Shown piece by piece: positions 26,338-32,769 of a stretch of 64,000 nt of DNA. This DNA is from Bacteroidia bacterium (GTDB lineage Bacteria; Bacteroidota; Bacteroidia; J057). The stretch is taken from NCBI GenBank assembly GCA_030430575.1, contig JAUIKF010000013.1, positions 62,001 to 126,000 of the forward strand, in the 5' to 3' direction. A program made the translations under genes and the position numbers. Below the pieces are notes generated by a model. The model was not told the DNA's origin. It searched no databases and saw nothing but the letters and a program-made list of their open reading frames with translations. How positions within the stretch are numbered: the first letter of the stretch is position 1; every line of letters starts with the position of its first letter.

Positions 26338-26769
26338 ATGAAACTCAACGACCACTTCGACTTATCAGATGAGGAATTCGAACGAGCATTTAAGAATTGC
26401 ACCTTGTCGCCAGACTTATTTACCCATGAGGCCCATCTGCGATTGGCCTGGATTCACCTTCAGAAAGTGGGACCCGAAAAGGCGCCAACCATCGTTTGTG
26501 ATCAGATCACGGCTTTTGTCGAGTATCTAGGCGCTCAAGACAAATATCATCAAACGGTCACTGTCGCGGCCGTCATGATTGTGCACCATTTCATGCAACA
26601 GACGGATGTCGACAATTTCAGTGATTTTATCTTGCAGTTTCCCCAACTCAAGACAAATCTGAAAGGCTTGATAGCCGCCCACTATAGCTTTGACATTTTT
26701 CAGTCTGAGGAGGCAAAAGTCCATTATGTGGAACCGGATGTCATTCCGTTTGATGCCATTATCTTCTAG
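26338..26769 (+). CDS. Conserved protein of unknown function
   Basis: A 143-residue cytoplasmic, mostly helical protein. The segment FTHEAHLRLAWIHLQKVGPEKA is typical of a conserved bacterial family of short proteins that share this FTHxAHLRLAW motif; no activity is known to me. The start ATG follows a good purine-rich leader (GTAAAGAATAATT). It ends only 18 bases inside a remnant of a Fur-family gene on the other strand, which suggests that the 3' end of this locus was rearranged. Its relation to the metal genes downstream is unclear; it may simply be the boundary gene. Confidence 0.75.
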   Translation: MKLNDHFDLSDEEFERAFKNCTLSPDLFTHEAHLRLAWIHLQKVGPEKAPTIVCDQITAFVEYLGAQDKYHQTVTVAAVMIVHHFMQQTDVDNFSDFILQFPQLKTNLKGLIAAHYSFDIFQSEEAKVHYVEPDVIPFDAIIF

Positions 26770-26814
26770 CCTTTTTAGGATTCGATAGACTGTCGTTTTG
26801 TTCATTTCTGATGA
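26752..26814 (-). pseudogene. Remnant of a Fur-family (probably Zur) regulator
   Basis: On the minus strand the frame reads SSEMNKTTVYRILKRLEDNGI. TTVYRxLxxLExxG is the recognition helix and following turn of Fur-family regulators. Only about 21 residues survive: the frame is closed just upstream by a TGA, and downstream similarity stops inside the 3' end of the gene at 26338-26769. It lies directly behind two copies of a palindromic operator and next to zinc-type genes, so the ancestral gene was most likely zur, autoregulated from here. The assignment to Zur rather than another Fur paralogue is contextual. Confidence 0.7.
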
Positions 26815-26834
26815 TTTTCATTGGATAAATTTCA

Positions 26835-26849
26835 TGCAACAATGTTGCA
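26835..26849. promoter_or_regulatory. Palindromic operator 1 (TGCAACAATGTTGCA)
   Basis: A perfect 7-1-7 palindrome. The same half-site recurs 38 bp away (centre to centre) and again at 31300-31314. It lies between the Fur-family remnant and the COG0523 fragment. Confidence 0.75.
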
Positions 26850-26872
26850 AAAGCAAGATAGTTGCTTATTTT

Positions 26873-26887
26873 TGCAACATTGTTGCA
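26873..26887. promoter_or_regulatory. Palindromic operator 2 (TGCAACATTGTTGCA)
   Basis: A perfect 7-1-7 palindrome ending 19 bases before the TTG at 26907. Between operators 1 and 2 is a smaller inverted repeat, AAGCAA…TTGCTT, with related half-sites. Confidence 0.8.
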
Positions 26888-26906: not shown

Positions 26907-27092
26907 TTGAAAAAACCTGTAACCATACTCACAGGCTTCCTGGGGGCAGGCAAAACCACCTTTCTTAATCATTTCCTTCAACAAAACGATGGTATCCGTT
27001 ATGCCATTATTGAGAACGAGTTTGGTGAGCAAGGCATCGACGGCGAATTGGTGATTCACCCTGAAGAAACCATCATGCCAATGCGAAGATGA
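26907..27092 (+). pseudogene. N-terminal fragment of a COG0523 (CobW-like) GTPase
   Basis: Only about 60 residues of a COG0523 metallochaperone GTPase: [22 protein letters not shown] contains Walker A (GFLGAGKT), followed by [15 protein letters not shown]. Homology ends abruptly after HPEETI, before the expected CxCC metal-binding motif, and a stop follows. No ATG is in frame; a TTG at 26907 is the only nearby start, and an ATG nine bases earlier is out of frame by one base in a T-run. It is either a decayed copy or a truncated relict of duplication with the intact gene at 27781. It sits right behind operator 2. Confidence 0.82.
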
Positions 27093-27144
27093 GCATTGTA
27101 ATACGATACCTCAAGAGAAACTAGTCTGACTTTAAAAAATAGCT

Positions 27145-27780
27145 ATGATACAGTCAACATACGATATCGCAAATGCAGCGATAAAAAATGACCCCAACGT
27201 CCTGAAAGACATTCATTTAGCCTCTAAGAACATTGCGATTTATCAACGTGATATTGAACCCTTAAGCGCGGATCTTGAGCAGATCGCAGATTATGAAATT
27301 AAATATCATGCAAGTGGATCAGTGGCAGAAATCTTATCCCAATTAGATGATTTTTTTACCAATCACCTTGAAAAATGCCCCTCCCTTTTTGACGATATCT
27401 CTGAAATCTTGGGATTATTTGAACAAACTACTCAGAAATCTTCCTTTCGCTTATTGCTGGAGACAGTAAGCACAAATATGTGCCGAAAATTCCATACGGA
27501 TGTGAATGATCTGCGACTCCTATGTACCTACATAGGACCCGGAACCCTTTGGATGCCAGACGGAGCGATCGATCAGAAAGCTTCGAAGGCTAGTAAGGAG
27601 ATGGTCATGGATTTTGCGCAAAAACAACAAGTGGCTGCAGGAGATGTCGTCATGTTAAAAGGCGCCCTGTATCCGGATGCTAACCCTATTCTTCATCGAA
27701 GCCCAACCATCGAGGAGAAGGGGGAAAAGCGACTATTATTAAGAATTGATACGAACGAGACCCTAACCTATTTTTCATAA
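27145..27780 (+). CDS. DUF1826-family protein
   Basis: A 211-residue cytoplasmic protein. The stretch LRLLCTYIGPGTLWMPDGAID and the following GDVVMLKGALYP…LHRSPTI match DUF1826, a family repeatedly found beside COG0523 GTPases in zinc-responsive clusters. The His/Asp-containing pattern hints at a cupin-like metal site but this is unproven. The stop codon is immediately followed by the ATG of the intact COG0523 gene, so the two are almost certainly cotranscribed, probably from a promoter controlled by the palindromes at 26835-26887. Function: likely adaptation to zinc limitation (inference from context). Confidence 0.85.
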   Translation: MIQSTYDIANAAIKNDPNVLKDIHLASKNIAIYQRDIEPLSADLEQIADYEIKYHASGSVAEILSQLDDFFTNHLEKCPSLFDDISEILGLFEQTTQKSSFRLLLETVSTNMCRKFHTDVNDLRLLCTYIGPGTLWMPDGAIDQKASKASKEMVMDFAQKQQVAAGDVVMLKGALYPDANPILHRSPTIEEKGEKRLLLRIDTNETLTYFS

Positions 27781-29001
27781 ATGACTTTACAAAAAAAACT
27801 ACCCGTAACCGTCTTAAGCGGTTTTTTAGGAGCAGGAAAAACCACGCTCCTCAATCATGTTTTGCACAATAAAGAGGGTCTGAAGGTAGCCGTTATTGTC
27901 AATGATATGAGTGAAGTGAATGTAGATGCAGAACTGGTAAAAAGTGAAAATACCCTTTCTCGCACCGAAGAAAAGCTGGTGGAAATGAGCAACGGGTGCA
28001 TCTGCTGCACCCTCCGTGAGGATTTGATGATAGAAGTAGAACGTCTGGCCAAAGAGAACAGATTTGACTATCTGCTGATCGAAAGTACAGGTATCAGCGA
28101 ACCCATTCCGGTAGCACAAACCTTCTCCTTTGTGGATGAAGAAAATGGGATTGACCTTTCCCGCTTTAGCTATGTAGATACGATGGTTACGGTCGTGGAC
28201 GCCTTCAACTTCTTCAAAGACTTTGGAAGTCCTGAGACCCTTATGGATCGTGACCTCACGGATATGGAGGGAGACTTCCGAACCATCGTCAATCTCTTGA
28301 CAGACCAGGTAGAGTTTGCCAATGTGATCATCCTGAACAAAACGGACCTGGTATCAGCAGACCAACTCAGTGTACTAAAAGCGGTCATTCAGAAGCTGAA
28401 CCCATCTGCACGCATCATTGAATCCAGCTTTAGCAAAGTCAGCCCAAATGAAATCCTCAATACCGGCTTATTCAATTTTGAAGAAGCGGAGCAAAGCGCA
28501 GGTTGGATAGAAGAACTCAACAAAGATGGACACACGCCTGAGACCGAAGAATATGGAATAGGGTCATTTGTCTACCGATCTAAAAAGCCTTTTGATCCAG
28601 GGCGTTTTTGGGCATTTGTGGATAGGAATTTCCCAAATACCATTATCCGGAGCAAAGGGCTCTTTTGGCTTGCTTCGCGTCCTGAGCAGGCCTTGATCTG
28701 GAGCCAGGCAGGCGGATCATTGCGGGCTGATAGCGCAGGCGTCTGGTGGAGCAGCATGCCCTTTGCCAAGCGAATTCAGTATGCGTCATTTGTGCATAAT
28801 CAAAAGGAAATTGAAAAGGATTGGAGCAAAACCTTTGGCGACCGAAAAAATGAAATTGTCTTTATCGGGCAGGACATGAATGAAACACTGATTAAAGCAG
28901 AACTTGATGCTTGCCTCGCTACCGATGCGGAACTGGCTACAAAAAGATGGGAAAAAGGCTATGACGATGCCTGGCCGGTTCAACGGGCTTATGCTTATTG
29001 A
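27781..29001 (+). CDS. COG0523 (CobW-like) GTPase, putative zinc metallochaperone
   Basis: A full-length 406-residue G3E-family GTPase. Walker A GFLGAGKT is at residues 14-21, the CxCC metal-binding motif at 73-76 ([11 protein letters not shown]), [11 protein letters not shown] in switch II, and LNKTDLV as the guanine-specificity motif near residue 183; the CobW C-terminal domain follows from about 265. Such proteins use GTP to deliver zinc (or cobalt in CobW) to client enzymes. It starts at the base after the DUF1826 stop. With the nearby operator palindromes, Fur remnant and ZIP gene, a zinc role is more likely than cobalamin synthesis. The next gene is convergent. Confidence 0.93.
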
Positions 29002-31297: not shown

Positions 31298-31316
31298 TAT
31301 GCAACATTGTTGCATA
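31298..31316. promoter_or_regulatory. Palindromic operator 3, upstream of the DUF5916 gene
   Basis: TATGCAACATTGTTGCATA is a perfect 19-base palindrome containing the 15-base core of operators 1 and 2. It precedes the DUF5916 start codon by about 52 bases on the minus strand. Confidence 0.82.
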
Positions 31317-32016: not shown

Positions 32017-32769
32017 ATGTCAGTAGCAGAATATATTATATTGTTTCTCGCCGTGCTGGTCGGAGGCGGGGTAGCTTTGTATTTTCAAAAAATTAAGGCT
32101 CGATATCTGGGCTTTCTGCTTTCATTTAGCGGAGCATACATTTTGGGTATTGCGATGTTGCACATGATGCCCATTGCTTTCCAGCATGCAGATGCCAATC
32201 CAGGTCTTTGGATTTTAATAGGCTTTTTTGTGCAGTTATTGCTGGAGCAATTGAGTGGAGGGGTGGAACACGGCCATATTCACCCGCATCAGCATAAAGG
32301 GACAGCCTATATGTTTCAGTTGATGGCAGGTCTTTGCTTACATGCCTTCTTTGAGGGACTTCCCCTTGGGAATTACGAAGCTTTTCAAGATGCCCATGCC
32401 CATCATGGACATGTACACAGTGATAACCACCTGCTGCTAGGGATTATCTTGCATAAAGCGCCTGCGGCTTTTGCTTTGACAGCCTTATTATTGGCTTCTG
32501 GGTATCGGAGGGCCTTGGTGATTGCTTGTTTGGCGCTATTTGCGATGATGTCGCCTTTAGGGGCAGGATTAGCGGCGTGGTTGGGACAAGCGGGCTGGCT
32601 GGACCATGGGGTTCAGGAAAAAATCATCGCCTTTGTCATCGGCTCATTTCTCCATATTGCGACTACTATTCTTTTCGAAGCAGAAGGCGCTACACACCAC
32701 CATCTGCCGTGGCGGAAAATACCGTTGATCGGGCTTGGGTTGGCTTTGGCGATTTTGAGTAGTCATTAA
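32017..32769 (+). CDS. ZIP-family metal transporter
   Basis: A 250-residue membrane protein with about eight helices. ZIP signatures: LHMMPIAFQHA in helix 2, a histidine-rich loop (EHGHIHPHQHK and HAHHGHVHSDNH), LHAFFEGLPLG in helix 4 (metal ligands His109 and Glu113) and ILHKAPAAFALTALLL in helix 5 (His146). ZIP proteins import zinc or other divalent metals. Its location three kilobases from the COG0523/DUF1826 pair fits a zinc-uptake role. It has its own promoter but lacks the palindromic operator found for the other genes. Confidence 0.93.
   Translation: MSVAEYIILFLAVLVGGGVALYFQKIKARYLGFLLSFSGAYILGIAMLHMMPIAFQHADANPGLWILIGFFVQLLLEQLSGGVEHGHIHPHQHKGTAYMFQLMAGLCLHAFFEGLPLGNYEAFQDAHAHHGHVHSDNHLLLGIILHKAPAAFALTALLLASGYRRALVIACLALFAMMSPLGAGLAAWLGQAGWLDHGVQEKIIAFVIGSFLHIATTILFEAEGATHHHLPWRKIPLIGLGLALAILSSH

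Follow-up and report, generated by a model that had tools for sequence, protein, structure and literature searches.

A deletion-made relict of a Zur-type repressor gene beside retained operators in a Bacteroidia genome

The minus strand of the window, by which we mean the whole 64,000-nucleotide stretch analyzed, carries a fragment that, on the evidence of sequence, is a pseudogene remnant of a Fur/Zur-family repressor gene, lying next to a pair of operators that intact relatives of the gene also possess. A zur2 relict made by deletion, the fusion of a COG0523 gene to a merC-like gene on the far side, and the retention of the operators between them would together explain the locus, and we regard this explanation as very probable. 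Zur2 is the name used here for the Fur-family subfamily concerned, whose profile was made from nine intact proteins. The features of the locus are listed below, with the evidence in brackets.

26338–26769, plus strand: neighboring gene of 143 aa, family unknown (homolog C-termini)
26752–26811, minus strand: zur2 recognition-helix relict, EMNKTTVYRILKRLEDNG(I) (Zur2 profile)
26805–26814, minus strand: internal out-of-frame deletion scar relative to G007 (ATG-to-ATG distances)
26807–26821, minus strand: surviving zur2 start, ATG AAA ATC ATC AGA, read as MKIIR (DNA alignment to G007 and G003)
26835–26849, no strand: operator 1, TGCAACAATGTTGCA, zur2-proximal (perfect palindrome; same position in G007)
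26867–26874, plus strand: putative Bacteroidota -7 promoter element, TATTTTTG (TAnnTTTG), overlapping operator 2
26873–26887, no strand: operator 2, TGCAACATTGTTGCA, 38 bp from operator 1 (spacing shared with intact loci)
26907–27074, plus strand: remnant of COG0523 GTPase 1, about 55 codons retained (Pfam cobW, E 4e-17)
27076–27129, plus strand: remnant of the 3' end of a merC-like gene, in a different frame (resembles MerC C-termini of related loci)
27145–27780, plus strand: DUF1826 gene, intact (Pfam DUF1826, E 3.3e-38)
27781–29001, plus strand: COG0523 GTPase 2, a ZigA-like zinc metallochaperone gene, intact (NCBIfam ZigA)
31300–31314, no strand: further perfect operator, upstream of a minus-strand DUF5916 gene

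Identification of the relict and its intact relatives

Read downwards from 26835, the minus strand gives MKFIQ*KSSEMNKTTVYRILKRLEDNGI in a single frame, within which the winged-helix recognition motif T-[TVI]-Y-R-x-L is present as NKTTVYRILKRLEDNG. The first-pass annotation had described a near-perfect Fur-family recognition helix here; its coordinates and reading were correct, and the Zur2 profile, run against all frames of the window, scores the relict at 25.5 bits (E 1.3e-6), the second-best frame reaching 5.8 bits. In tblastn, the intact G003 protein matched the relict with 80% identity over 20 residues (E 1.5e-5) and the intact G007 protein with 83% over 18 residues (E 2.2e-4). The Pfam FUR model (PF01475) gave the relict 13.6 bits, below the whole-domain cut-off of 23.1 bits, and gave the intact G007 relative 37.0 bits; as PF01475 is not significant on the fragment, the identification depends on the Zur2 subfamily. 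The fragment has no C-terminal dimerization domain with CxxC metal sites, and intact Zur2 relatives carry metal sites of the form HFQCxxCG...C..C. Linkage to COG0523/ZigA, DUF1826, and TonB-dependent receptor genes suggests a zinc-responsive Zur rather than Fur or PerR.

When 119 genomes were searched with the fragment (a 34-residue query in which the in-frame stop was replaced by S), two members of the same family stood out, namely G003 (62%, E 1.7e-5) and G007 (64%, E 4.9e-5); the frame is open in each, and identity is 62–64% across 25–26 residues. Looking for a complete zur at the same locus in relatives had been proposed as a check on the fragment, and an intact gene was indeed found in both. 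These zur2 loci (G003:C1:443730 and G007:C66:5492) adjoin operators and a COG0523 gene, here COG0523-1, which diverges from zur2 across the same operators in each, and an independent search also found TGCAACAwTGTTGCA beside zur2 in the two genomes. The order in G007 is zur2 (129 aa, minus strand), two operators, COG0523-1 (340 aa), a MerC-family gene (140 aa; Pfam MerC, E 1.5e-19), and COG0523-2 (408 aa), while the G003 locus comprises zur2, operators, COG0523-1, and merC. Further afield, a Croceivirga MAG (L163) carries zur2, merC, DUF1826, and COG0523-2 in the same order, zur2 is divergent from merC in L157 and L170, and the zur2-divergent layout is similar in all three.

It might be argued that a chance reading frame, overlapping the plus-strand gene in antisense over part of its length, merely happens to look like a recognition helix, since generic Pfam matches are weak and scattered over several winged-helix families, with Fur itself at E 0.36 genome-wide. 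The 25.5 bits obtained with the Zur2 profile nevertheless compare with a maximum of 12.2 bits in 20 order-1 shuffled windows, and position, orientation, start codon, and operator spacing all agree with those of intact genes. Coincidence, refuted by the intact genes at the matching position in G003 and G007, has a negligible probability.

The window copy is closest to the intact Zur2 genes of Bacteroidota, which include those of G003, G007, Flavobacteriales UBA6057 (L157), the Croceivirga MAG (L163), and a Formosa sp. (L207). It resembles them in its start sequence, its helix (EMNKTTVYRILxRLED), its divergent position, and its operator pair, but differs in having lost residues ~6–35 and everything past residue ~54, and in being frameshifted.

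Deletion scars on the two sides of the operators

DNA similarity to G007 and G003 spans both operators, the leader, the start codon, and ATCATCAGA; the window alignment then skips to GAAATGAACAAAACGACAGTC... and ends past GAAGATAATGG. The gap between operator and ATG is 13 nt in the window and in G007, and the start reads MKIIR in the window as against MRIVR or MGIIR in the intact relatives. The start ATG at 26821 sits in a different frame from the helix. The ATG of MNKTT follows this start by 16 nt in the window but by 108 nt in G007, a difference that puts the missing sequence at ~92 nt and throws the gene out of frame. A stop immediately upstream of the helix had been reported in the first-pass annotation; the TGA is present (26820–26818), but it is better understood as a by-product of the frame shift that the ~92-nt deletion produced. 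Microhomology in the G003 and G007 flanks suggests that this deletion probably occurred between short CAGAA(A)-like repeats.

At its other end zur2 breaks off at about 26754/26755, where it is joined to the plus-strand gene, and below ~26755 the minus strand is antisense to that gene. Homologs of the plus-strand gene terminate in ...KPDLVPFDV* (G005) and ...EPDLLAFG* (G003), whereas the window copy ends in ...EPDVIPFDAIIF*, indicating that it draws its last ~4 codons and its TAG from zur2 sequence read in antisense. The remnant might still encode a functional small operator-binding protein, since a 92-aa open frame with an ATG exists, starting MNKTTVYRILKRLEDNG. Such a product would lack the rest of the winged helix, the dimerization domain, and all metal-binding Cys/His residues, and its tail would be antisense to another gene; we consider it highly implausible.

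On the far side of the operators, a 61-aa frame (26907–27092) is the beginning of COG0523-1, being 76% identical to COG0523-1 of G007 over 58 residues. Its COG0523-1 part ends at ...PEETI (27074), after which the sequence resembles the MerC C-termini ...NRKYCQCEDDACC (G003), ...NRKYCYCDDEEHC (G007), and ...NRMYCQCENDEC (L161). Judged from these alignments, a deletion has removed most of COG0523-1 and of a merC-like gene, leaving the beginning of the former joined, in a different frame, to the final codons of the latter; the scar agrees with the gene order of G007. The operators and the promoter element now stand directly before DUF1826 and the intact COG0523-2 gene, whose product scores 562.9 bits (E 3e-169) with NCBIfam ZigA, just below the cut-off of 600.

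The scars are known from one assembly of the species, and two of them within 350 bp of an assembly of 127 contigs might suggest a misjoined contig or sequencing error, the gene being intact in the organism. No pieces of zur2 or COG0523-1 lie elsewhere in the genome, however, the flanking genes are open, and frame-breaking deletion at microhomology is something that typically happens in nature. Error of this kind is thus improbable, and genuine deletion is the reading followed here. A congeneric sister genome, G001, has neither DUF1826 nor TGCAACAwTGTTGCA operators nor zur2, and so gives no date for the loss.

Operators and candidate regulators

The operator is the palindrome TGCAACAnTGTTGCA, TGCAACAwTGTTGCA, which occurs in four perfect copies in the 8.16-Mb genome, itself placed in Bacteroidota by its relatives. 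The members of the operator pair are 38 bp apart in G007, L163, and L167 and 40 bp apart in L157, and the proximal box begins 28 nt from the zur2 start at intact loci. Because this pair, with its spacing of 38–40 bp and its box at 28 nt, recurs at intact zur2 genes, autoregulation of zur2 is strongly implied by the sequence comparison. TAnnTTTG, which we take to be the Bacteroidota -7 promoter consensus, stands at an identical offset in all five aligned loci (window, G007, G003, L157, and L163). Zur-type repressors would be expected to bind the operators, which are presumably still functional, and repression may act through occlusion of the promoter element at operator 2.

The same palindrome is found in other settings. 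The operator at 31300–31314 also precedes a like DUF5916/CBM9-like gene in G007 (C15), and a ZIP-family transporter gene (32017–32769) lies ~700 bp from it on the other strand. Another perfect copy (L022:2265–2279; G000:C43:16264) stands before a small lipoprotein-like gene without a Pfam match, and G019 (L087) has a similar gene likewise preceded by the operator. The palindrome is located at a TonB-dependent receptor gene in G003 (L081). At two MAG loci (L158:9083 and L161:4211), it lies ~70 bp before DUF1826, and zur2 was not detected nearby; this arrangement is similar to that of the window but differently built.

If regulation persists, a further copy of the regulator had been expected to act in trans, and a search of the genome for an intact Fur-family gene was proposed. 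Three were found, on C11 (Fur-like, 100.8 bits), C97 (46.6 bits), and C27 (36.7 bits), and the 8.16 Mb in 127 contigs contained no second Zur2; a search of the genome at the DNA level likewise returned no other copy of the relict. Action of another Fur-family protein in trans is plausible, and the C97 paralog is the best candidate for binding the operators because genes related to it follow this operator immediately elsewhere, lying 36 bp behind a perfect copy in G033, G076, and G112. In the tree, C97 orthologs form a supported clade across most of the family, and C97 and the operator-linked proteins do not form one tight clade. Autoregulation of C97 was also examined: an imperfect operator copy, TGCAACAATTTTGAA, lies 133 bp upstream of the gene, and this box is not conserved in the family orthologs, so C97 is kept as a candidate only. 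The C27 gene (L003:1402–2648) overlaps the end of a cation-efflux-like gene, and genes resembling it (C27-type) are also present in G004, G005, and G007.

The operators could instead be orphan sites with no active regulator, leaving DUF1826–zigA constitutive. Zur2 has been lost, operator binding by C97 is putative, and the deletion may be recent, in which case perfect boxes alone are no sign of selection. Against this, two more perfect sites lie near other genes of this genome, one of them also before a like DUF5916 gene in G007, and Zur1-type genes are present in most genomes of the family. We find constitutive expression rather unlikely. A regulator swap, in which the autoregulated Zur paralog was deleted, operators and promoter were kept, and a second Zur paralog of the same specificity controls the shortened zinc-starvation operon, seems to us evenly poised.

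The earlier proposal that an ancestral zur gene was autoregulated from here and then lost by deletion is borne out by the intact divergent zur2 genes with the same operators and by the deletion scars. The fusion beyond the operators, the persistence of the zur2 start codon, and the stop that the plus-strand gene has borrowed from the relict are additions to that proposal. The history may be pictured as beginning with an autoregulated zur2 divergent from a zinc-starvation operon (COG0523-1, a merC-like gene, DUF1826, and COG0523-2/ZigA) across a shared operator pair. Loss of ~92 nt between the zur2 start and the recognition helix would have put the gene out of frame, and a separate rearrangement would have cut it past the helix, joining the remainder to the unrelated plus-strand gene. 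A further deletion beyond the operators would have joined the beginning of COG0523-1 to the 3' end of merC. Operators and plus-strand promoter would have survived these events to stand before DUF1826–zigA, and the C97 paralog may now bind them in trans.

Relation to known Zur systems

The closest solved relatives of intact Zur2, at weak similarity (E 2e-4), are PDB 3mwm and 7vo0, which we take to be Zur of Streptomyces coelicolor. That protein shares the winged-helix recognition helix ...TTVYR.L..L..G, but the window fragment, unlike it, keeps no metal site. Zur-controlled COG0523 genes are well known, and such clusters include DUF1826 (Haas et al., 2009; PMC2770081); the zur gene of Francisella and a COG0523 gene are divergently arranged (PMC5786701). 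The locus described here is like these clusters in grouping COG0523, DUF1826, and a Zur-type gene around Zur sites, and differs in that its operator is TGCAACAnTGTTGCA, its zur has decayed to a relict, and one COG0523 gene has been destroyed as well. Autoregulation of zur and promoters bearing a pair of Zur boxes also have precedents (PMC6103462). The text of that 2018 review does not mention Bacteroidota, a limited literature search found no description of a Bacteroidota Zur operator or Zur2 subfamily, and a full-text search for TGCAACA with zur gave no relevant match.

The gene from which the relict descends is of a known kind, and the relict itself, as a single regulatory pseudogene, is ordinary but well resolved. 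Its wider interest lies in the palindromic operator, which across Bacteroidota is linked both with zinc-starvation genes and with two Fur-family lineages, and in the clear snapshot that the locus offers of a regulator being lost while its sites and targets stay.
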